Source: Echinarachnius parma (Eukaryota > Echinodermata > Echinoidea > Clypeasteroida > Echinarachniidae). Taken from it: DNA of 64,000 nucleotides. A program made the position numbers and the translations under genes. The stretch is from the NCBI GenBank assembly GCA_037951105.1, contig JBAMJV010002107.1, positions 124,001 through 188,000 of the forward strand, in the 5' to 3' direction. This document shows positions 6,501-38,380 of this stretch, piece by piece; the first letter of the stretch is position 1, and every line of letters starts with the position of its first letter. A model generated the notes under the pieces. The model was not told the DNA's origin. It did no database searches and was given only the letters and a program-made list of their open reading frames with translations.

Positions 6501-9500
6501 AAAGACACATTTGAATTGTAAGATCTCTTTTGGCAGTGGTATAGCCCTCACTGTACCTCTTTAACGCACAATATCCCATGTTTTGCACATTCCCTACAGC
6601 TTGAATTAAAATAAACACTCTTGGGCCATGTAACACAAAGTTTTATGATTATTTGTACAATCAACTGATTGTTCGTACCATAACTAATTGATCATATGAT
6701 GAGTAAAATAGATGATCTTACAATTAAACTTAAAAACTATTACAGGCCTTACGGTGCCCTGTACTGATAGAATAACTACTAATGGTATAAATAGCAGAAA
6801 ATATATCTGATGTATTTTTCTGGTAGCAGAGGGATTCTTACATCTGTAATCCATACATACAATAATTTTTTCTAAATTGCAAGATCTATTTTTGGAGTGA
6901 AACCCAAGCTGCACCTGATTCCCTTATATACACATTTACACAGCGCCGAGTCTCTCCCTATATTAGTATATGCACCCCTGCACCTGTAGAGTACAATAGT
7001 CAGGAAATGTGATAATAAACCGTTATAGTGCTCTAGAACATTAAATGCCATGTATGTCAGATTTTCTTTAGTTTGTAGTTCCCCAAATATCCCCTTTCAC
7101 CCAAATACTTTTACACACCCAATGCACAGCACGACGCATAACTAGCTGCTTATATGCACCCAATATTTGTATGTATACACAAATGCATGACATATATACT
7201 AATTTATAATAAAGAACATCTGAAATAGTTCAGCCACACATCTCCTCATCTTATATATTGCTTCCAAATCAGCACTGTAACATTCGTAATAGAAAGTGTT
7301 CGGGCACAAAGAACTAGTGATCAAGAAATGCGAAATGTGATTGATTTCAAATAAGTAAAATACAGAATGTACACATAGCATGCACTCTAAATAGAATAAC
7401 AAATAGCATGTAGAATATTCTGCAAATTCCTTCTTTAAATGTAGAAATGTATTAAACTGGCACATTCTGTATTATTTCACTACTATTTACCTGTGCACCC
7501 GCTTTGTTTTATTATTTTATTCACTTCTCAGGTATTATTTAGTTTATGAAAGTTTTATCTTAACACTTTAATTGCTGTATAAATACATGATTGTGGTGAT
7601 TATATTTTGTATATGCAGAAAAGCACACGTAACAACCACCCCTCTCATGTTTATAAAAATGTGTTACATTTACATTGCAAATAAGTTCACAATATAAATA
7701 CACATCTTCTTCTTCTTCTTCTTCTTCCAGGTGCAGTACAGTCCTCTGAGTAGAGTATTATCGTACTGTTGTGCGGTGCAGAAGTGCAGCGTGCAGAACT
7801 CCAGGAGAGAGCCAGGAAAATATACTTGAATAGGCAGTCATAAAAAGTGCGAAAGTGCAAGTAAAAAGCCATCTTTGTTTCTTAGTTTTGGCGTAGCTTC
7901 AGTCCTACCAGCTCGCTCCTAAAGTGGTCGATTGTAGGAGCTGATCTTGTCGAGACTGGTAGCTGGTTCCACAGGCAGATGGCGCTTGGGAAGAAGGAAG
8001 ATTGATAGCTGTTGATCCTGCAGTATTGTTGTTGAAACTGGGCTTGTTGTCGTCTAGAGCGGTATATCACAGGAAATATGTATGGTGGTCCAGATGGTAT
8101 GGCAATCAGGTTATTTACGATTCTGTACATCATAATAACCTTGAGTTGGGCTCGTCTTTCATGGAGTGTCTCCCATTTTAGGGTCTGAAGCATATGAGTG
8201 ACACTATGAAGTTGGTGGTAGTCCCTCAGTACGAACCGAGCTGCGCGTCGTTGCACCATTTCTATCTTTCTGATGTGATCTTTGGTATGTGGGTCCCATG
8301 CCGTAGCAGCATACTCGAGAGTTGGACGAACATATGTAGTGTAGGCTTGTTCTTTTATCTTTTGAGGGCAGCCATGTAGGTTTCTTTGTAGGAAGCCTCT
8401 TGTTCTGTTGGCTTTCTTGCAGATGTTATCAATATGAGGCTTCCATTCCATCTTTGAGTTGATCGTGACTCCCAGGTATTTTGCATTGTTGACTATCTGC
8501 AGCTCAGTCCCATCTAGAGTGTAGGATGATTGGATGATGTTCTTCAACTTGTTTGTCACTCTCAGAACTTCACACTTAGATGGGTTGAATTCCATTTGCC
8601 ATGTTGATTCCCAGTCCTGAAGGTGCACTAGGTCTTGTTGGAGAGCATCGGCATCAGCTTGGCAAGATATACGTCTATAAAGTAGACAGTCATCAGCAAA
8701 CATACGGACTTCTGAAGAGACACACTCTGGGAGGTTGTTGATGTAGGTGAGGAAGAGAAGGGGTCCAAGGACGGTCCCTTGCGGTACACCAGAAGTAACT
8801 CTGGTACGGTCTGACATCTTGCCATCGACGACAACTTGCTGTAGCCGATCAGAAAGGAAGTCTCGTATCCATCGAAGGAGATTGCCACGGATGCCGTAGT
8901 GACAGAGTTTAAGTAGGAGCCGTTCATGAGGCACTTTATCGAAGGCCTTTGAAAAGTCTAGCAGTATGGCATCGATCTGTTGTCTATCATTTAAACCTTT
9001 GGCTAGGTCATGAATGGTTAGAAGTAGCTGAGACTCGCATGAATGTTGTTTGCGAAACCCATGTTGCTTCTCTGAGAGGATGCCATGGCGCTCAAGATGG
9101 TTAATGACTTCAGAGAATATGACATGCTCCATAACTTTGCAGATATGAGATGTCAGTGAGATTGGTCTGTAGTTACAAGCTTCATGTTTGTTTCCTTTCT
9201 TAAAGATAGGGCTCACTATTGCGGACTTCCAGTCAACAGGAATTCTACTTTGATGGAGTGTCGACTGAAATAGGAGTGTCAAGACGGGTGCAAGTTCGGT
9301 AGAGCATTCTTTGAGTAGCCTTGATGGCAGGTTGTCCGGACCAGATGCTTTGTGTGGTTTTAGTCCTGCTAAGAGTTTTCTTACTCCTTCAGGACTTATT
9401 TGAATTGCTGGTAGCTCTGGATGAGGGCTTACACCTAGGTCAGGAATACTGTTCAAATCTTCTTGAGTAAACACAGATGCAAACTCGTTGTTTAGGAGAG

Positions 9501-12500
9501 CTGCCTTGGTGTCACCATCATTTCTCAGTATGCCATCCTTCATAAGTGGTGCAACGCCAGAGTGGTCACATCGCTTGCTTTTGATATAGGCCCAGAACCG
9601 TTTGCCACCATTGGAATTTTCCCCAGAAATGAGATCTGAGATATAGTCTTGATATACCTTGCGGCATTTCTGTTGCATGATCTTTTTCAGGTTCTTGTAT
9701 TTCTCAAATCGGTCTGGACTTCGGCTTTGTGATTCGCGTAGCCTTTTATACGCTTTCCTCTTCTTCCTGGAGAGGCGCTTCAGTTCAGACGTTATCCAGG
9801 GTTGGCTAAATCTATTTGAGGTGAGCTTTGATGGAACATGTTGATCAAGGAGACTCAGAAGCTTGGTCTTGATATGGCTCCACTGCGTCTCAACAGGAGT
9901 CTCCAAAGTGGTGTTGATGAAGTAATCGTCAACAAAATTCTGAAGATCAAGACGCACTTCTTGAAAGTTTGCTTTGTTCCAGAGATATATCTTTCTTTGA
10001 GGCGTCTTTTTGAGTTGCGCCCTTACATCTGAAACGGTAAGTACCATTTCATGGTCACTAATCCCAGGCAGGGGGACACATTTACTCACTAATGCAGGGC
10101 GGTTTGTGAGGAACAGGTCAAGAGTTGATTGTCTTCTGGTTGGGAAGTCCACAACTTGAGTAAGGCCAAGGTCTTGGAAAGTTGACAAGAATGCAGAGTT
10201 GATTGGCAGACTGTTTTGATGGCTGTCAATAGATTCAGTTTTCCAATTGATGTCTGGTAGATTCAGGTCACCAGATAGCCAGATTGTTGCTGTTTGGTGG
10301 TTCTGTATAATCTCACGTATGGCCATGCATGCTTCTTCTGCCTGCTGGAGGTTGTTACTTGGAGGGCGATACAGAGAGATAACAACCAGTTTCTGGCCTC
10401 CAGTGATGGCAATTTCGGTAGCAACAATTTCAGAGTTGGTGTTTGTGGTGATCTGTTTGTCCACAATGTCCTGTTTCGTTGCAATGAGGACTCCACCATA
10501 TCCATCAGGTCTGTCTTTACGAACAGCTGGGGTGTTGTAACCAGGTGGGATTATCTCACTGCATAAGATATCTTCTTTTAGCCATGTCTCGCAGCCAATG
10601 ATAATGTCTGGGTTGCATGCATCTACCGCTTGCCAGAAGGACTCCTTCTTGTTGCGCACACTCTGGAAATTTACAGTCAGAACCTTGAGAGGTTTGCACT
10701 TTTTCCGGCAAGGCTGCTTTAGTGCGCTCTTAGGTGATGAAGACCGTAGAGGCGGCGGGGAGTTGATGGGAGAATCTGGCAGGTTTATGGAGACTGATGA
10801 AGGGCTCGAAGAGGAGGGACAAGTGGAAGGCTGAGATCCGTTTCCGACTAAGTTTGCATGATCATCAGATATTTCAGATAGGACACTGAAACTGTTCTCG
10901 CTCTCAGTAACTACATAAGAGTCCAGCAACGAAGACCGGTTCGGTTGGTCACAGTGAGCACAAATCCAGGTCACGTTGCTGTGGTTGAGGTTGTTGTATG
11001 TAGATGAGGACATCCCCATGCAATCAATGTGGTACCACACGTTACAAGAATCACATGCTACGGCTCTACGGGCCGTGGACCATTTCACGGCTTTGGTGCA
11101 GATACCACAAGGGAATTTTGGTGTGTAAGGACCAGGGTTTAGTTCTGTGTCGTGGGCATTGGTCAAGAGGAGCATGCTCAAATAGAGGAGAACTGCTTTC
11201 ATACCATTGTAACGAAACTGTGCTTCTGATAATGATCTGAGATTGACACTGGATGCAAGGGCTGCTTGGAGGTTACCGCGTGCAGTATCATGACTACCTA
11301 CGGTTAAACCTGAGGCAGGATACCATTTAGACACAGGAAGACATTCATACGAGAAGTGTTTCATATGTGCTTGCAGAGACTGATTCCTTGTAAACAAACA
11401 ATTGACAGCAAGTGCTGGAAGCAGTAGAAGGAGAGCAAATATTTGGTGATTTCCCATGTTTAAGGAAGCTGGTTTCAAACTTGCAAAGGCTCAATATACA
11501 TGAAGACATCCAAGAGCAAGTCCAATTCAACAGAGTTTGCTGAGAGTAATATGCTCATGAAAAGAGAAGCTTAGCAATGCTTAAATCCATTGACATGATT
11601 TGTCCAAGATTATCTTCAGACAATAGGTATGGTGGTATGCGTCAACGAGTCTAAAAACTAGTACAGGGCTAGTTGAGTGTGGCCTATACAATATGCATGC
11701 AACTTGGCATGTTACACTGCAACACATAATATATTAAATGGGACTAAGGCACAAAGTCTCCAAAGTGTTACAAAAGCAGTGCATTTTGTATATCCAAATC
11801 TCACTAAGGTGCTGAATCCAACAACAATATCAACTCAACAATCAGATTCTAGAAATGTCAAGCTAATGCAACAGCATAGTTCAGAAACAAAATATTGCCA
11901 AATAAAAGTGAAAAAAGAGATAAATTTCAAGAGCTCTCTCTGAGGGGGTGCACACTGCAATTCGCCAAGCACAACTTTCGCCAAGCACAACTGTTATGAA
12001 CCAATTTCAAAAATTCCTTTTATGACAGTATTTATCAAGTATGCAGTCATTTCGAACCGTAAACCATTTACTTTTGATTTCTGATGCATGAAATGTGTGA
12101 TTTACCGTAAAATAACTCTCTTCTTTCTGAATTATAATTAAATGGAAGTAAAGACATCTTATTTTTGAGAGAAGGAATGTTCTGCTTGAATAGTTATAGT
12201 GAAGTATTCAGAATTAGAATTTATTCAGTTACCATGATCATGATTATCTATAAGGAAAAATATCTATTATTACAAAATGTTAATGAGAAATTTTGATTTT
12301 GTTGTTAACATCATGCATCATGCATGATAATGATAAATAATGTTTATGTTTGTCTAATGTTTTACCCTGCTACCATACTATAGCCATGTGGAAAATAAAC
12401 TTGGGTATGTTATACTGTACATCAGAGTTATTTTTGTGTGAAATGTGTGATATAACTGCACACTTCAGAATACAAGTATGAATACTGCACCACTAATATT

Positions 12501-15500
12501 AATAGTTTTATATTAACAGGTATTCAACAAAATGCAGTGACTGATATTTTGGTCCAGTGTTGACAAATCAGCCGCAGTGAACTATGTAGAATAAGACTGT
12601 AAAGAGGAAATAATGATAATTTATTGAATAATTATGAAATAGACTTCACATGGAAGGGCTTACAAACATCCACAAAGCCATCTGTAAAGTAAATAACTAA
12701 TATTGAACAATATTGTGTTTTTGTTCTTGTGATTCAAATGTTTTTTTAAATTCCAGATCTATAATGTGTGTTTTCCCCAATGTTGTTACTATTATCATGA
12801 ACAAACTTTAAAACTATACCCACATGTTTATTATCAATATTTTAGCATTTGCTTGATGTGTGTTTTGAAGTCGATCACACCCTTATTATCATGTTGTGCA
12901 TATTTTACAGACTTAAGACAATTTTGCATATTGATTTAAATGTGGCATTTAATTTATACAGATTTCATGGTCATTCACGGATTTTGATGTATGTTCTAGC
13001 ATTTTCATTTGATTCCAGCCCAATTATTCTCGGAACCAGATTTGATAGGGTTAAATGATGCCGTTCTTGGAGGCTTATTTTTATGAATGAGTTCCATGTA
13101 TCAGTATTAGCGTGTGTGGAATTTCCATATAAATTTTGGTAAGACTGAATGCTTTTCAATGGGTCAGGTGTAAATCAGTCGGTCGCACCACTGTATGGCG
13201 GCTTGTGGCTAGTATGCTCCCTAGGGAGTTGAGGTGGTGCATACGTCCATATTTTGTGCCAGAGCAACACCACTGGAATTGGGACGGAAGGCTTCTGGCC
13301 ACAGTTATTCAGTTAAAATTTTCCAAGCCCTGGCATTCCAGTGGTTGCAATTTCCTTATTTTGTTACATTTTCTTGTTTATTTGATTTGCAGAATAAATA
13401 ATAATAATAATAATAATAATAATACTGACAGCTTGTGAGCATGTTTATGAATCCAATATTATTAGTAAAGCATTGTGATTTAACTTTCAATCAACGCAGG
13501 TTCGACCCGTCGATGGTGGTGCGTATCGAGAAGTCCATTCTAGGAGGGCGCCCCCTGCTGTTAATGAACAGCGCAGACAAGGTGGACTCGATGTCCTTAC
13601 CCCTCATCCACCATTCAAACCACGGCACGGAGGAAGGCGGAAGTGGAGGTATGAAATTAACTAAATAGTTTTAAGGAATATACAGTCACTGGCTTTTTTG
13701 TTTAGATTTATAGCTTTTATATTGATTATTTTGTTGCCCCTTTGTTTTTGTGGACCCTCTGTGCCTCAGAATATTATTACTAGATTGATAGCGCACATTA
13801 AGTGCTATATATTATCATTATTATTATGTCTTTTGTAAATAACCCTATCTTTTATAATAGCATACCTGCCAACTGTTCCGATTTATTCTGAATATTCTGA
13901 TTTTCTGAATTTTTAGGACCTTAAAAATCAGAATATATATATTTTTTTTTTCGCCCCGTGCCGTGGCTCACGGGGGCGATTCCAAAGGTATTAGGGGCGA
14001 ATCGCCCCCGTGTATTTTTTTGGTTGGTAGGGACAGAAAGTGTTTCTCATCGTCATATGCCCCAGAAACACTCAAGGCTGCAAAGAGTGCAACCTATCAA
14101 GCTCTGTAATGGTCAGTTAATTGTTAACAAATGGCGAATTCTCCGATAAAGTGCTATATTTATGAAAATCATGTCGCCAGCATATATGGGCGTGTTTATA
14201 TTCCTTCTTATATTCCTAATGAATATTTCTGTATGTCAAATAATACCTACGGTGTTATGCCTTAAAACTAGTTGAGACTTGTTGTGAAAGTCAAAGAATG
14301 TATCACCCTAAGCACAATTCTGAATGATGGCTGACCTCTAATGTCCCCATGTCGCCACTACTGTGGTGCTCCATGTTTTATGCCCCCATGTATTACAGAG
14401 AAGCATAAACTCAATATCATCCATAATTTCCATTAGCCCATGCCAAACTCTAACATTCAAGTACAGTCACCTGTAATGTCAAATCAACACATTTCGATAC
14501 CAGCCCTCTGATGGTCTGTCGCCAAAATGGGAACAGATACGTTACCGTTTCTCTAAAAATGGTTGTAAAACAGTGGATTACTTGTTTGAAATGCATTTTC
14601 ATATGAAATGAATTATGGTGATTTAATGATCACAAAACATAAAGCGACTCCTGCTGTACTGCTTTGGGAATTTTAAGAAAAGAAGCATCTTTTCCATAAT
14701 GGCATGTGTTACGTTTCTGTTTCGACAGATACGTTACCCATATTTTATACGATTATCAAAAGCGCATCAATGAATAACTAAAACTAGTGTTTACATAAAC
14801 GTTTCAATGACTGGTTGATGAATAGTTGATGTGAGAATAGTGGTAAAAAAACATATATTACTCTTAAAAATTCACATGGAACAAAATGACCACCAGATAC
14901 GTTACGACAGATACGTTACGCAAGATTATCTCACTTTGAATGCGCACGTAGCTTCGCGCGTAACAATAGGAAACGCGCTTAAGTTTGTGCACGTGATTTA
15001 CAATTTCGACATGCTGGAGCAGAAATATCACGGCGCGGTGTTTCTACGGCCCAATTTTCCTGCATTCTGCCCCATTCTGCATGCTCTTTCTGCAATCGTA
15101 CGGTGAGTAAGCATATTAAATTATTGAATTTTATCACTTTGATTGTTAAACCTTGTGTACTGTTCTTGATCAGAGATAAAGTGTGTTTACACACATACAT
15201 TGGTTTGATATTAGATGTACTATTTGATACGATGATGCACATATCTCTGTAACGTATATCTATACCATGTGCGCTCTCACTTATTCACTGGTAAAACTGG
15301 TAACGTATCTGACCATTGTGGTAACGTATCTGTCGCGTTTGTTTTTGTGCATTCTTATCATACTATGACATAATATCATGATATATATACACTATAACGT
15401 TTAATTATCTGCAATTTAAAGTTCCACATTACAATTGTGACTACATGTATAATATTTATTCTGCAATATTTGATTATGACTGTGTATGCTAGATCATTTT

Positions 15501-18500
15501 GGATAGGCCTATACCTGCCAATTTCGCAGACCCCTAACAGTTATCCATATATCTTTCTTCATAATAACAATGCTAAACACACACACACGCACGCACACAC
15601 ACACACACACACATACACACACACACATATATATACACACACACACACACACACATACCATTTTTAATAAATATGAATTTAAATATTGTCTATCTCCAAT
15701 TTAATATCCTTTCAGATAATGGGGAAATCCAGGGCCGAGATCCAAAGGGCCTATAGAGAGAGAAAGAAGAAAAAGGATCCGAAATTCCTCGAAAAAGAAA
15801 GAAAAAGACAGGCGTACTATCGTGTTCCTGCTACACAGTTGAGCCAGTCAGCCCTTAAGGAAAGGAGGAGAAAAAGTCGTGAACATTGTAAAGCTTACAG
15901 AAAGAAGAGAAAGGCTATCAATGTCTCCTCGACGCCTGACGGTCCTGCTGTCCTGACTGACAAACGAAGGTCTCGTTCAGCTGATGAGTCCGATAAGCTT
16001 GTAGTCCAGTTTGCTTTTCCTCAGAGAAATACAAACAAAAAACGATCAAGAGCACTAAGAAAGGCAAACAAAACTCTAAAAGAAATATCTTCACAGAACG
16101 TTCGGCTGCGCAGGAAGCTAAAAACAGTACAGAAACGATGTGAGAGGCTTGTGAAGAAGAAAAAATCATCTGAGAAAGTCACAGAAGATATGACACCGCG
16201 GAGCAAAACAAAAGAAGAACTTAGACAGGCAAACATGGACAACAAAGCTGTACCACTATCGATTCGGAAAAAGCTTCAATTTTCGAATGTACTTGCTTAC
16301 CAAATTAAGCAGTCACACAGCAAGGCTTCGACCCAAAACAAGCAGCGAGAATTGCGAAAAGTCATTGCCGGGAAGATTGTCAAGAAATACAGATGCTTGG
16401 CTTCAATTCACAGAAACACTGGCATTAGACATTGCACATTACTCAAGACTGGAGAGCGACGTTCGCGCAATGCATCAATAAGAAAACTAATCGAAGAGAA
16501 GGTCGTCTCCTATTTTCAGCGAGATGATATCAGTCGATGTATGCCAGGAAAGAATGATGCCACAACCACTGAGAATCATCAGAAATCACAAAATCGCATT
16601 CTCACAGATTACTTGAGCAATATCTATGCAAGGTTTCGTTCTGACCATCCAGATACCATGATCTCTTTCTCCAAGTTTGCAAAACTCAGACCACCCCATG
16701 TAAAGCTAACATCATTTCTTTCTAGAAGTACGTGTCTTTGCACTATACACCAAAACATGGCGTTCAAACTGAAGTGTCTTCATTCACTGGGTGTTGATGT
16801 GTCCATGAATCCAGAATCAACTAGCAAGAAGGTCAATGCTGAAGAAATGACAGAAATGATATCACAGCTTGATGAAAAAACTGAGCTTGAATACGAAATC
16901 TGGAAGAAAGTAGATGTCAATGGAGTAAAAAAAATGAGAATAGAGAAGGAAAAGAAAAGCAGAGACAACTTCAGAGAAATGATGACAAAAGAATACGCTG
17001 CATTCCAGTCGCATGTAGACAGGGTAAAACAACAGTTCCATGCTTTGTCTGAGCTCAAGTCAAATCTTCCACAGAAACAGGTCATTGTCCAAATGGACTT
17101 TGCGGAAAATTTTGTTTGTCAAAGCGCACATGAAATCCAAAGTGCGTACTGGAATAGTACAAGCGTCACTCTCCATCCAGTTGTAGCTTACTACAAAGAT
17201 AACGAAAATAAGCTGCAGCATAAAAGCTTTGTCTTTGTATCTGACGTCAGTGAACACAATGCCAGGACTGTTGTTGCCATACTTCTCAAGTTAGTTCCCC
17301 TCCTCAAAGAACACATTCCAGAATTGACCAAAGTACATTATTGGACGGACAGTCCAAGTTCCCAGTACCGGAATAGATTTATCTTCCAGACGATCTGCAA
17401 GCATGGAGAGATGTTTGACGTAGAGGCTGCATGGAACTACTTCGAATGCGGACACGGAAAGGGGGTGTGCGATGGCATCGGTGGCACAGCTAAACGCCAG
17501 GCAGCGGATGCTGTCAAACAAGGCAAAGTCCTCATCCAAGATGCCACAGACTTCTTCAAATGGGCTTCAGACAACCAGAAAGAAATAACGTATCTTATGT
17601 ATTCCAGGGACGAATACAACGATGCATCGAAGATCGTGTCTTCATTTGACTGCCAAGCAGTGCCCGGGACGATGAAGGTGCATACTGTAGTCCCTGCCGA
17701 CAACAACTCCATACTCGTAAGACATGTGTCCTGCTACTGTCCCCAGTGCCTTGAAGGTAACAGTCGATGTGAAGGATGGGTGAAGCGGACGCTCAGGCCC
17801 AAAGGACAGATCTCCAAAGAAGGACCTATCACGACCGTCAACGACGGTGGCGAGGCATCAACTTCGATCAATACCATGAATGAGGGTGGCAAGGCATCAC
17901 ATTCGAAAGACAATATTTCGGTGGCTGCAGGAGAATATGTAGCTGCAATGTATGCAAATGAATGGTACCTTGGTAGAGTACTTGAAGTCGATGAAGAGGA
18001 CCAAGATGCACAAATGACTTTCATGGTAAATGTACGATCTAAACAGGGCACGAAATTCAAATGGCCACATCCATGCGATGAGCTTTGGATCCCCTTACAG
18101 GATGTGATCATCAAAGTAGCCCCTCCAACTCCGCTAGGAAAATCTGAGCGATTTTTTCAGATACCAAAGGAAACACTAGATCTCATTGAGAGTTTGAAGA
18201 CAAATGTTGACTAAATTCTGCTTTAAAACCAGCATATTACTTGCTCATGGACTCTTATTAATCAAGGTATATCTACACGTTATATGCTGAACTTTTGAGT
18301 TTTGAGTTTCCTTCTTTGAACTTGAATCATACTAAACTTACAATGAATTGGACTTGTTTTATAGCCTATGAATAAACTATGTGCCAGCAAGAGACAATGT
18401 ATACACTAATAATTTTGCTTTATTACAGGAAAAAAGTTGCTTGATTGATATTTCAACTAAAATAAATTGACCATAGACGCATCAGGTTTATCATGTTTAT

Positions 18501-21500
18501 GAGATTTTACTCTTTATTCAGTTTCTGAACTTCTACTTGAAAGTAATTTCTTCTGAATCAGATAAAGTTAAAACTAACTTTTTTATTGGCAATCCTGAGC
18601 TGATTATTTTTACTTGAAAATGAGGAGATTCACGAATAACAAGATAATTATCTTGTATGTATTTTCGGAGGGTAAGGAGAAAGAAGTTGGAGGACAGATA
18701 CGTTACGTCTTTTGATTGTTCGAGACGCGTTTGTTTAAAGTGCTTGGTTTCCATGTTGGATAATGATTCATAAGTATACAGTTAATACATAGTATTGCGT
18801 CTTTTGATGATATGTTTTAAGATCACAAAGTTGTTTCTAGATTAGAAATATGAACTATGTTGAATTTATTAACTCAAGGGCTTTGAAACATCAATGAACA
18901 ATTTTTTTCGCTTTACTGCGGAAGAAGACTATTATAAAGGTCGAAAATATTAAATTTACCATCCTCTTTTTAAACTTTAACACTTGACTTAAAATGTGAT
19001 GGGGCTTTGATCTTGTCTTTATTATCTTAAATGAGACAACAGATACGTTACCGTATACACAATGAGTGGATGAATGTACTCATAACCCAGTGTTATAAAT
19101 ATATACGTTTTATTTCAGTATTGATAATGATTATGGTAAATACAAGTTAAATCAGATATGTATTACATAGTAAAATGTTTGGAATAAAAACAATAATCTT
19201 TTATTTTGTGAGACTATACTATACATATTTACACCAAGAGTAACTTGTTGTTTCTAGATTAGAAATATGAACTATGTTGAATTTATTAACTCAAGGGCTT
19301 TGAAACATCAATGAACAATTTTTTTTCGCTTTACTGCGGAAGAAGACTATTATAAAGGTCGAAAATATTAAATTTACCATCCTCTTTTTAAACTTTAACA
19401 CTTGACTTAAAATGTGATGGGGCTTTGATCTTGTCTTATTATCTTAAATGAGACAACAGATACGTTACCGTATACACAATGAGTGGATGAATGTACTCAT
19501 AACCCAGTGGTTATACATATATACGTTTTATTTCAGTATTGAAATAATTATGGTAAATACAAGTTAAATCAGATATGTATTACACAGTAAAATGTTTGGA
19601 ATAAAAACAATAATCTTTTTATTTTGTGAGACTATACTATACATATTTACACCAAGAGTAACTATATATATATATATTATATATAAATATATATATATAT
19701 ATATACCTCTTTTTCATGGCAGTTTCATCTGGTGAAAAATGTTCCTAGGGAGAAATTTGCATTTTAAGTAAACAATCTGGAAATTCCCATTGATATTTGG
19801 TCTGTTCATACATAAACTTGATAAAAAAAAGTGAACTAGTATATATGTTACATAGTTAAGTATTTGAAAACAGATACGTTACCCTATACATGGTCATTTG
19901 TGGAGTAATCTTTACCAAATCTAAAGGTACTGCGTCTATGAATTATTTGTGTATATTGTTGTCTGTTTTACAGGCTTGAATTTCATGCTGCTTTAACATG
20001 CCTTCTGAGTTTTTGTGGACCAGAAACTCAAACTGAAATTAAACCAAACAAATGTTAGGCGATAAATCTTCTTTCCGTTCCCTTTTTCAGAGGTCAACTT
20101 AATATTGATCTTCATGTAAACGTCTTTAATGCCATAGGTTTTCAAAAAAAGATGTCTGGTTATTTGCAAGATGTCAGAAGCTGCCACTGTAACAAGTTAT
20201 ATGATATACAATGCAGATATTTTTACCTTAATCACAAGTTTGTTAAAAAATGACTTGCGGTGACGTATCTGTTAGCCTGTTAAATACTCATTTACAAGAG
20301 TCAATTTTGAGGTAATTTTCTGAAAAAATATGAGATGTTAAAAATCACCCGTTTGTTATTCCACGTTTGTCATGTATTAAAGTTTCAAATGACACGTTAT
20401 TTTCATGAGTTCTAAGGGGTCGTTATTTCACTTTGTCTCTATTAATGTTATAGCACTTAATTGGAGAATTCGCCAAATATCAAATTTGGGTTAACCAGAG
20501 CCTGTCATTTCATTTTGTTTTGCCCAAAATGCTTCAGCTTCAGGGGGCCCCCAGTGGGTACAGATTTCTGAATTTCAAATGTTGGCAGGTATGTAATAGC
20601 AGTCTGTCTTGTTATGAAGCCTGATTTCGAACATTACCGGTCTGAATGTTTTTTTAGTCGCGTCAGCTCAGTGTGCATTGCCTCATGGGCGGAATTTGCC
20701 AGTCAGTAGCTAAAGTGTAAGTGTAAGGGGGCCGACTCAACATGTTGAATTGGCCCCTACTGATCAGGCCCGACTCTAACCTAACTTAAAACCAGTCGGA
20801 TCGAGAAGTCTGCTCTGTGTAAAAAATGTATAAAATGTATGGATCTCCTTATATATTTGTTTTAAGCATACCATAATTACACTTTGAAAAAAGTAGGGCC
20901 TTTTCAAATTCTTAATCTCTTTGGTAAACAAATTTCAAATCAATAATTAAATTTCATATATTTTTTCTCCAGATGCCCGTCTCATCAAGTATTGCGGTCG
21001 CAGGCTCCTCGGCCATGAGAACTTCCGCGTCACCATAGCAACCACCGAGATGTTCCCCACCCTGAGCGCAAGAACGGCATCGGCTACGACAATAGTCAAC
21101 TACAAGGCTTCTCCAGAAATGTTGAGAGAGGAGCTGCTGGATAGGGCCTTTGCAAGGGTGATGCCCCAGCTATACCTTGAGAAGAAGAAGGTCCTAAGAG
21201 CCATCCAGCAGCACAAAGAAACACTGAAGGTTTGTGTCATATGCTTAGATAAACTTATTGGCTGATAGAAGAGTAATACAGTTATTGAACATTCACATGT
21301 CCACCCTAACCACCATACTTTTCAGTTGCAAGGTATAAATCTCCAAAAATATTCAGTGAAATAAACCAATTAATAGAAATTTAGCAAATTCAACTACAAG
21401 GCTTCTCCTGAAATGTTGAGAGAGGAGCTTCTGGATAGGGCCTTTGCAAGGGTGATGCCCCAGCTATACCTTGAGAAGAAGAAGGTCTTAAAGGGATCTA

Positions 21501-34000: not shown

Positions 34001-37000
34001 TTTTTTTGTCAACATTGCTGCCAAGTGTGACATTGGCTAGCACACCCTGTACTCTGTTTCAAAACATTACAATCTCCATCACTGTCAAAGGGATAATATC
34101 TATATAGAAAAATATCATACTTGTATACAATTCTTCTATTGCCTTTTGGATCCTTCCTTACCTTTGTAATAGCGATGAAATTATTCAGTAAATGAAACAA
34201 ATTATGATCAATACATTGTTCTGATTTTTCATGCAGTGATCTTGACTTCCTTTCCTACCTACGAGCTCCAGCACTCCGGTCAAATGAGTTCACCGTCGCA
34301 ATCCTCCCAGCATTCCTTCGACTCGCCCAAGATCTCCAACTCTGTCGACTCAGTCACCTTCCTTTCTTACCCTTGTTTGCTAAATTAGACAACTATTGAT
34401 AAAGCTGATGATAAAGTTACCCGTTTGTCTTTTTTTCTGCAGTGGGCTCGACTTCCTGTCCTACCTGGACAGCCTCTACGAGCTTCAGCACTCCGGCCAA
34501 ATGAGGTCACCGTCGCAATCCTCCCAATCGCCCTTCGATTCAACCAAAATCTCCAATGCCGTTGACTCGATCACTGAGAGGCTGCCCTCTATAGTTGACC
34601 TCGGGGAGCTGCCGTTGCACATCGTCAACGAGGCGGAGAGATACACGTTCCCGTACCACGCACCGTCGCTGATGTCGCTGCTTAGCGCGGCAAGCGTTGA
34701 AATGCCGCAGAGCATCGGCTTTGTTCTTCTACAGGTAATTTATATATTTGGATTGTCAGAACTTTCTTTTAATTCTCTTCTTAAAAATAAAAGGATAATA
34801 TTAACCCTGGCTCAACCACAGGTACAAAGTGTTTATAGTAAATATCATTTATAAAAAGTAACACTTTTTCATTTGGTAACAATAATATTTTGGTCAATGG
34901 AAATCAGAGAGATTGTTGCAATATTCCTTTTAAATTGTCATTTATGTTCTGCTCATGAATTATTATTTTTTTTCAATTAAAGGAATATCATTTGTATGAG
35001 TTGCTGCAATGCCATAAAGGTCAATTACTCTTTAGTTTTCAAATACTCAAATAACCATGATTTGGAATAAGTCCCTAAAATCAATTCTTTACTTGACTTC
35101 CCTTTACAGGAGTGCCATTGGTACAACTCGCTGCTTTGCCACGTGCGTCAGTCACTGCATGAGTTGGAGTGCTGCCTCCTGCAGGGTCCTCATCCGATGA
35201 GACCGGAGATGAAGAGCCTAGCCCAGGCCCTGCAGCAAGACTCGGTTCCAGCCAGCTGGGTCCATCCAAACAGACAACCCAGCGGACACACTCTCATCTC
35301 TTGGGTAGAAGGTTAGTTGTCTTTTTGTTTGTTTGTTTGTCCATCTGTGTGATTGCAAGTGTGTTTTGAAAGGGTCCTCATCCTATGAGACCGGAGATGA
35401 AGAGCCTAGCCCATGCCCTGCAGCAAGACTCGGTTCCAGCCAGCTGGGTCCATCCAAACAGACAACCCAGCGGACACACTCTCATCTCTTGGGTAGAAGG
35501 TTAGTTGTCTTTTTGTTTGTTTGTTTGTTTGTTTGTCCATCTGTTTAATTGCAAGTGTGTTTTGAAAGGGTCCTCATCCTATGAGACCGGAGATGAGGAG
35601 CCTAGCCCAGGCTCTGCAGCACTGCAGCAAGACTCGGTTCCAGCCAGTTGGGTACATCCAAACAGACAACCCAGTGGACACACTCTCATCTCTTGGGTAG
35701 AAGGTTAGTTGTCTTTTTGTTTGTTTGTTTGTTTGTTTGTCCATCTGTGTGATTGCAAGCGTGTTTTGAAAGGGTCCTCATCCGATGAGACCGGAGATGA
35801 GAAGCCTAGCCCAGGCCCTGCAGCAAGACTCTGTTCCAGCCAGCTGGGTCCATCCAAACAGACAACCCAGCGGACACACTCTCATCTCTTGGGTAGAAGG
35901 TTAGTTGTCTTTTTGTTTGTTTGTCCATCTGTGTTATTTCAAGTGTGTTTTGAAAGGGTCCTCATCCTATGAGAACGGAGATGAGGAGCCTAGCCCAGGC
36001 CATGCAGCAAGACTCTGTTCCAGCTAGCTGGGTCCATCCAAACAGACAACCCAGCGGACACACTCTTATCTCCTAGGTGGAAGGTTAGTTTTTTTTCTGT
36101 CCGTCTTTTTGTTTGTTTGCCTTTTTTGTTTGTGTGCTTGTTTGTGTGTGTGCGGGAGAGAGTACTAGCGCAGGCCCTACAGCAGGACTCAGTTCCAGCT
36201 AGCTGGGTCCATCCCAACAGACAACCCAGCGGACACACTCTTATCTCCTGAGTGGCAGGTTAGTTGTTTTTCTGTCTGTTTTTTTGGTTTGTTTGCCTTT
36301 TTGTTTGTGTGTTGTGAGTACAAAACCAGGCCCTGTAGCTAGGCTCTGTGCTAGCTAGCTGGGTCCATTCAAACAGACAACCCAGCGGACACACACTTAT
36401 CTCCTGGGTGGCAGGTTAGATGTTTATCTGTCTTTCTGTTTGTTTGTTTTGTTTGTTTGTTTGTATGTTTGTTTGTTTGTTTGTATGTTTGTTTGTTTGT
36501 AAGTCTGTTGGTTTTTTTTTTTTTTTTTTGTTCGTAAAGTGATACGTTATTAATGAGCTCCGTAATTATTTATTTTCTTTGATAAAGACCTGAAGAAACG
36601 CTACACCCAGATGCAGGCTTGGATCAAGGAGGGCAAGGTCCCCCGCTCAGCCCCCCAGGAACCGGCCCTGTCCATTCCCAGCGAGCCACGCGGTCATCTC
36701 TTGACCATCTGGATGGGTGGACTGGTCAACCCAGCGGCCGTCATAACGTCGCTGCGTCAGGAGAAGGCTGCGCTGATTGGTTGTCTAATGTCGCAGGTTA
36801 GTAAGAAATATTTTTTCTGTGGCAGTTTTGATTTTTGACCATTCCTTACATTTAACCAACATCAATTTCAAGGCATTCAAATCTGTTCAGTGCAACAATA
36901 TCAAGCATTTCATTAAAAATGTGGTGTTTATATGAATAATATTGATTATTTTGCATTTTTCCAGTTTGTGCCATGTAGTTTTATCACATAGTTTTGTTTT

Positions 37001-38380
37001 AATTGGTGGTAAAAGTATGTTTGCTAGTGAAAAAGAAATGGCGATGCAACATCACACAGGTAGTAGATGTTTATGCATGTTCATGCAAATAATGTGCAAC
37101 AATGCCTATTTGTTTTTGATACAGATTGATATTTCCTGCGAGGTGTCCAAGTCGATGAGAGAAGACAGCTTTGACATCATCCACCCTGGCGGCATGTACA
37201 TGAGGGACGTCTATCTGGATGGTGCATCGTGGGAAATTGAGAACTGTTGCCTAGCAACAGCAAGGTAACCCCTCCTTGGAATTATTTGCCTATTGATATT
37301 GAAATGTTCGTATTCAAACTTAGTTTTCAGCTAGCCTTAAGTTTGTTGTTTGAATTTTAATCAGGATGGCCAACCATTAACATCTTGCATTTGCCATAGA
37401 CTCAATATATGCTCTACCAAGCTCCTGTTGTGAATGTGTTAATAGATTGAAGCACATGCAACTGAAAATATTAGTTACGAATAAAATTAATAGTGGATAT
37501 TTTGTTGATTCAATTGTCAGTTCAAGCTACCTGGCTGGTGATGCTCCTGAGTGAGTGGTGATATGCACCAAGGAAATATTAACCATAATTACAATAACGA
37601 TAGCTGTTTTTATTATTATTATTTTGTTCAGAATCAAATACATACACCAAACAAAACAATAAAATATGTTAAAATACATAAGTATTCAGACATATACATC
37701 TTAATGTCATCTAGACACCCTATTCCTATTTTGAATATTCCATCTTTATTGTAACTTTTTTCCCTTCAATAGCACCACCTTGTCACCTATGCCAAGCATG
37801 TACATCAAACCAGTCCTGCTCGACCAAGAACCAACAACAGAAGGCGGCGAGGAACCCAATGAGGATGCGACTAGCCAAGTAGCGCCCTCTGGTGGTGAAA
37901 CTCAGCCAGGTGCAGAGAGCGAGGGTGATGATCAGCGTCCAGTATTGGGTGTCTACAACTGCCCTGTGTTCCTGAACCCATCTCGACAGGTAAAGTATAC
38001 ATGTAGTTTGTGTGGGTTCTACATAGAGACCGGGATGTACATGAAACTGCAAAAACCTTCCAAATTTATCCCTACAAAACTGTGAATTATTATTTATAGG
38101 TAAAATGCAGTACTGACAAATTTGAATTTTCATTCTAAATTGGAAGAGAAATTTACAGAAGCAGTGTCTTACCTTAATTTAGTGGTGAAAGATGGTGTTT
38201 AACAATCACTGGATATACACAAAACATAAATTCATGGTCGCGTTTGATAAGTGTCACTGATAAATGCTTTGTATAAATATTATTATTATTTCCATCATTG
38301 TTCTCACCATCATTATCATCATCACCGTGATAATGATGATGGTAATGATGATTGTGATGACAAAAATACAATTAATCATC

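Follow-up and report, generated by a model that had tools for sequence, protein, structure and literature searches.

Two nested DNA transposons in Echinarachnius parma: a probably Sola-type element with a predicted Tudor-like tail inside a CATACC miniature element

The window analyzed here (C2106:124001-188000, a stretch of 64,000 nt) comes from the assembly of Echinarachnius parma (1.2 Gb, 14,790 contigs). It contains a miniature inverted-repeat transposable element (MITE) with CATACC ends, interrupted by a second, 6,342-bp transposon that carries an 831-codon gene for a putative transposase. The two elements and their parts are arranged as follows; TIR denotes a terminal inverted repeat and ORF an open reading frame.

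13855-13860, no strand: left 6-bp target duplication (TAATAG) of the outer MITE, read from the sequence
13861-14132, no strand: left part of the outer MITE, ending in AAAT (14129-14132), the left duplication of the inner element (ten aligned MITEs and blastn)
13861-13873 (+) and 20581-20593 (-): outer TIR, CATACCTGCCAAC, 13/13 match
14133-20474 (+): inner autonomous-looking transposon, 6,342 bp; other copies stop here, not at CATACC
14133-14144 (+): left inner TIR, GGCGAATTCTCC, perfect over 12 bp, with similarity to about 26 bp
14534-15332: left block of a site array, CAGATACGTTAC at 14534+, 14726+, 14894+, 14908+, 15300- and 15321-
15249-15256 (-): core site TACGTTAC in the left block
15719-18214 (+): putative transposase gene, 831 codons in one ORF
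17078-17518 (+): predicted RNase H-like core, residues 454-600, with D460, D544 and D585 (alignment, AlphaFold model, integrase and Mos1 matches)
17894-18211 (+): predicted C-terminal Tudor-like barrel and short helix, residues 726-831
18695-20271: right block of the array, with sites at 18695+, 19040+, 19457+ and 19871+, and one with a mismatch at 20260-
20463-20474 (-): right inner TIR, perfect over 12 bp
20475-20593, no strand: right part of the outer MITE, beginning with AAAT (20475-20478), the right duplication of the inner element (alignment and blastn)
20594-20599, no strand: right copy of TAATAG, read from the sequence

An earlier note on this DNA had described one 6.7-kb transposon of unassigned superfamily. 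The marks it listed are all present: perfect 13-bp TIRs, flanking TAATAG duplications, a second inverted pair near the ends (27 nt, 93% match, 14132-14158 and 20449-20475) and an intact, autonomous-looking gene, which begins with ATG. These marks come from two elements, however. The gene and the second inverted pair belong to a separate transposon nested at 14133-20474, of which that pair is the terminus. The locus resembled a new superfamily because MITE ends had been combined with a gene that belongs to the nested element, which itself makes a 4-bp target duplication.

The outer element, without its insert, is 387 bp long. Its 13-bp TIR occurs 516 times forward and 525 times in reverse in the genome (1,041 exact copies, compared with 2 + 2 for the same pattern read backwards), so other copies sharing the CATACC ends, which the earlier note had proposed to look for, do exist, about a thousand ends in all. 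At 100 of these 1,041 places we read every inverted TIR pair spanning less than 2 kb, which gave 33 elements between 210 and 1,389 bp long; pairs at the wider distances of 15 and 27 kb (two in all) and single ends were set aside. In these 33 and the window element (n = 34), target duplications were exact over 6 bp in 28 and over 7 bp in 2, and had one mismatch in six in the other 4, with a loose preference for sites near YAATWG. The number of TIR copies and the 6-bp duplications thus mark the CATACC ends as those of a large MITE family. All 34 elements have CA..TG termini, in a sample that was itself retrieved by that TIR. They fall into at least two groups with a common TIR and different interiors, plus odd members such as the 1,389-bp L009. 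At one further place (G000:C679:9481-9912, L052), seven copies of CATACCTGCCAAC lie in a single orientation at about 70-bp spacing, possibly a satellite grown from a MITE end. We found no autonomous partner with 6-bp duplications and CA..TG ends, and a literature search with the letters of the TIR returned two unrelated papers only. The CA..TG ends might point to a hAT identity for the outer MITE. IS3EU shares 6-bp duplications with the outer MITE, but its ends are TA..TA rather than CA..TG (PMC10045372); Dada shares the 6-bp duplication and nothing else (PMC3706591).

The break in the outer MITE can be located by alignment. Ten MITEs match the window element at both of its ends, and five of them (L017, L034, L044, L046 and L050) run continuously through AAYAAATATCAAATTTGGG at the position of AACAAAT in the window; the remaining five have different sequence at that point. 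In the window, the order is AACAAAT, then 6,342 bp from GGCGAATTCTCC to GGAGAATTCGCC, then AAATATCAAATTTGGG. Most simply, this would be an insertion into the MITE that duplicated AAAT. Other gene copies stop at the same boundary: 17 end pieces were collected from ten near-identical copies, to which more 3' pieces and the termini of three broken copies were later added. Fifteen of the 17 reach a junction, always at the inner end GGCGAATTCTCC or no more than 15 bp inside it, and none of the 17 carries the outer TIR in the expected orientation. A joined-flank query for an empty site with a single TAATAG matched, in this assembly, nothing but the filled locus and, incompletely, four short stretches.

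The inner element, with ends GGCG..CGCC, has near-identical copies elsewhere. Its final 150 bp occur at 13 places in the genome, and searching the genome with the protein returned 57 matches, 11 of them full-length at 100% identity (including that in the window) and the rest broken or diverged. The ten other full-length ORFs differ from the window gene at 1-4 of 2,496 nt, which is a sign of recent activity; 9 of the 11 full-length genes are free of stops, and the other two have one internal stop each. A public contig of 6,543 nt encodes the same protein with one residue changed. Both junctions could be read at 11 of these family-1 copies, and exact 4-bp duplications flank 6 of them: AAAT in the window, TCCA at C3344, ATGT at C9557, AGCA at C5374, ATAT at C10038 and AATA at C3120, where the 5' end is short by 7 bp. 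The inner element is most likely a recently active cut-and-paste transposon of Sola-like type. Several copies whose genes are nearly identical (L093, L095, L096, L100, L101, L118, L121) are short by 1-15 bp at one end or at both and show no target duplication, which would fit integration that was sometimes imprecise or one-sided.

A second family in the same genome (C5036, C659, C1143 and C7569, the last being one insertion that appears in two contigs, C7569 and C1203) encodes proteins with 38-40% identity to that of the window. Its elements are 5.92-5.96 kb long and end in imperfect TIRs (GGCTCAAACCCACTA/GGGTCAAAACCAGTA), and nine of its 3' ends are found in the assembly.

On the evidence of its predicted fold, the 831-residue protein is a DDD transposase with putative catalytic residues D460, D544 and D585. 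These three acids are nearly invariant (kept in 55, 56 and 55 of 56 aligned sequences, respectively), they lie at the expected places of the RNase H fold predicted by AlphaFold, and this core matches integrases and Mos1. No Pfam family matched the window protein at its curated cut-off, none matched more than 4 of the 56 sequences at E ≤ 0.1, and a PDB sequence search with one protein gave nothing. Scoring of 8000 candidates gave 93 relatives. The family is represented in echinoderms, molluscs, lancelets, a hemichordate, a cnidarian and insects, under database names that give no hint of transposition. One relative, P0009, is filed under a bacterial metagenome-assembled genome (Sedimenticola) and is probably animal contamination. 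Searches for relatives with DNA context gave 28 pattern matches in viral contigs and 164 in genome contigs, with 0 relatives in either, and none were found in plasmids by tblastn.

The C-terminal tail drew attention through weak PDB matches, with the profile (E 0.34) and with the tail alone (E 0.056), of which the best were Agenet/DUF724 proteins. The tail has the predicted fold of a Tudor barrel, and this Tudor-like barrel, searched by itself, returned Tudor domains of PHF1, PHF19 and MTF2 in 7 of the best 10 rows, covering nearly the whole domain. Several aromatic residues are conserved (Y745, aromatic in 46/49; Y750, F768, F780 and W782), and would suit a methyl-lysine cage. The barrel might instead be a DNA-binding SH3-like domain, as in the C-terminal domain of retroviral integrases, and no histone reader at all; we take this possibility seriously but incline against it, given the predominance of nearly full-length Tudor matches and the set of aromatics that would suit a cage. 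The nearest published counterpart to a predicted Tudor-like tail is Gypsy-10_Ec32 of Ectocarpus, which its report claims as the first Tudor-bearing transposable element of any kind (PMC12477816). It resembles the inner transposase in joining a C-terminal Tudor-type domain to an integrating enzyme, but it is an LTR retrotransposon from another host group rather than a TIR element (PMC12477816). Our literature search for Tudor domains in transposable elements found no case in a DNA transposon, although other journals may describe one.

The second unusual feature is the array of short sites on both sides of the gene. All ten exact copies of CAGATACGTTAC in the window lie in non-coding sequence of the inner element. 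The core TACGTTAC occurs 11 times in the inner element (mean 0.15, at most 2, in shuffled sequence) and 11 times in the family-2 copy C5036 (mean 0.07, at most 1); the 56.6 kb of window sequence outside 13501-20900 contain none. One of the 11 sites is duplication-derived, since those at 19040 and 19457 fall within a 417-bp tandem direct duplication inside the inner element (18830-19685), which spans one TACGTTAC site. Measured from the left end, the 5' sites are at 406+, 598+, 766+, 780+, 1117-, 1168- and 1189- in the inner element and at 403+, 594+, 765+, 1117-, 1139-, 1511- and 1533- in family 2. Four of the seven coincide (within 5 bp, same strand), a result that 1 in 100,000 random placements equalled; we ourselves chose the tolerance of 5 bp and the range of 300-1580, and the comparison covers the 5' sites of two families. 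Elsewhere, blastn aligns the inner element with family 2 over 125 bp only, within the gene. Five more distant loci have the TACGTTAC core 0-2 times, so the array is not established for the whole lineage.

Such an array would look like a set of sites held in place by a transpososome, with putative transposase binding at each. The TACGTTAC sites could also act as promoter or enhancer elements for a host factor, since host factors commonly recognize short repeated sites, and transposase binding is itself putative. We consider a host factor rather unlikely, because the 11 sites flank the gene on both sides in both families, and because their 5' positions are partly conserved where non-coding similarity is otherwise absent.

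The Sola superfamily was reportedly introduced by Bao et al. in 2009. Sola elements have a DDD transposase and 4-bp duplications and are mostly 2-9 kb long (PMC10741241), and Sola2 of a slime mould combines a transposase of 888 aa with TIRs of 12-13 bp and 4-bp duplications that are AT-rich (PMC3627910). The inner element agrees with these accounts in its DDD transposase, its size (6,342 bp), its TIR (perfect over 12 bp, against at least 11 bp in Sola) and its 4-bp duplications of varied sequence, found at 6/11 family-1 copies and 2/4 family-2 sites (PMC10741241, PMC3627910); its 831-aa protein and 12-bp TIR are also near those of Sola2 in size (PMC3627910). It differs in that neither a Tudor-like tail nor an ordered TACGTTAC array was found in the Sola descriptions, as far as the excerpts extend. 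We conclude that it works like a Sola-type element and probably is one, a match to the published description of Sola and not to a reference transposase sequence.

Several observations weigh against this assignment, or against the nesting as we describe it. No duplication is present at 5 of the 11 family-1 junction pairs: C5924, C8861, C13599 and C999 are truncated at one end or both, and C6732 lacks a duplication although its ends are intact. Two of the six duplications (TCCA and AGCA) are not AT-rich, unlike those reported for slime-mould Sola2. Among the four independent family-2 sites, C659 and C1143 have none, and the other two show TATA and AGAT, the latter at C7569 in a register that is ambiguous by a base or so. 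Foldseek alone gave no match at E ≤ 0.001, with Argonaute-type chains ranked first. Finally, about 15 bp that lie slightly farther outward in the MITEs, by a few bases, are missing from the left flank in the window; an exact empty twin is therefore not among the ten.

The inner element might represent an undescribed superfamily with a DDD transposase and 4-bp duplications. The lack of significant Pfam matches, the absence of a transposase name on any relative and the descriptive nature of the Sola likeness all speak for this, but we judge it decidedly unlikely, since the DDD residues, the 4-bp duplication, the 6.3-kb length, the 12-bp TIR and the single 831-aa ORF all fall within the published Sola range. 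That a single 6.7-kb CATACC element with 6-bp duplications encodes the transposase, and that the MITEs arose from it by internal deletion, with cuts at the inner inverted repeat, is hardly credible despite the perfect ends and duplication in the window and the outer 267 and 120 bp common to the MITEs and the window element, because the other gene copies have no CATACC beside them and carry, at the inner end, 4-bp duplications of their own. Dada, Tc1/mariner and Ginger were rejected as well. Dada, which the earlier note was right to doubt, is described as having no TIRs, insertion into small-RNA genes and a long gap between the second and third catalytic acids (PMC3706591); the inner element has a 12-bp perfect TIR and a duplication of 4 rather than 6-7 bp. 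Tc1/mariner elements such as Mos1 do not fit 4-bp duplications of varied sequence, which are not TA. Ginger, like retroviral integrases, is set apart by the absence of any integrase family from the Pfam matches of the window protein at E ≤ 1 and by the GGCG..CGCC ends, compared with the accounts of those groups (PMC10045372, PMC10741241). Taken whole, two nested transposons, the inner one a DDD-transposase element with 4-bp duplications and probably of Sola type, is the best explanation, and we hold it with good confidence.

For the inner element, we propose that the transposase would bind the TACGTTAC sites to either side of its gene and pair the two GGCG ends; D460, D544 and D585 would then cleave, and the ends would be joined to target strands 4 bp apart, in a cut-and-paste reaction. 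The C-terminal barrel may contact chromatin, with a methylated histone tail as its most likely partner, and so bias the landing site in a chromatin-guided way.

A weaker lead is insertion beside hairpins. The starting point was a stem-loop next to C3344 and inverted flanks at both C9557 and C3120; insertions of the inner element (L102/L103, L087/L088 and L120) lie in or beside perfect or long stem-loops. We folded 100-bp joined target sites as DNA against a GC-matched background of 125 kb from one genome. Six of 15 sites (11 from family 1 and 4 from family 2) fell in the lowest 5% of the background (Fisher 8e-5; Kolmogorov-Smirnov 0.016), compared with 0 of 27 CATACC MITE sites with an exact duplication (Mann-Whitney 0.008). 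Against this lead, the idea arose from the same data, and 3 of 12 are left without the three sites first noticed; moreover, the site in the window is ordinary (0.30), and 9 of the 15 lie above 0.05.

Elsewhere in the window, a 1,202-residue open frame at 7882-11490 (-) has PHD finger, endonuclease and reverse transcriptase domains and is probably a non-LTR retrotransposon with its own PHD finger. The earlier placement of the locus in an intron of a dynein-like gene finds one sign among the 20 window ORFs scanned, a weak Dynein_C match 16 kb away (36936-37265 (+), E 4.5e-4, below the curated cut-off); that placement is therefore weakly supported.

A nested insertion can thus mimic a new superfamily, and a transposase family whose database names reveal nothing of its function now has its correct ends and duplication. 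We raise tentatively, as something unlikely to hold in every part, that this is an animal cut-and-paste lineage with its own histone reader, targeted by a chromatin mark and hairpin-prone DNA, with an ordered site array that has outlived other non-coding similarity. If the tail does bind histones, the inner element would, as far as our literature search reached, be the first DNA transposon to carry a Tudor reader of its own, and its stop-free genes would make chromatin-guided transposition directly testable.

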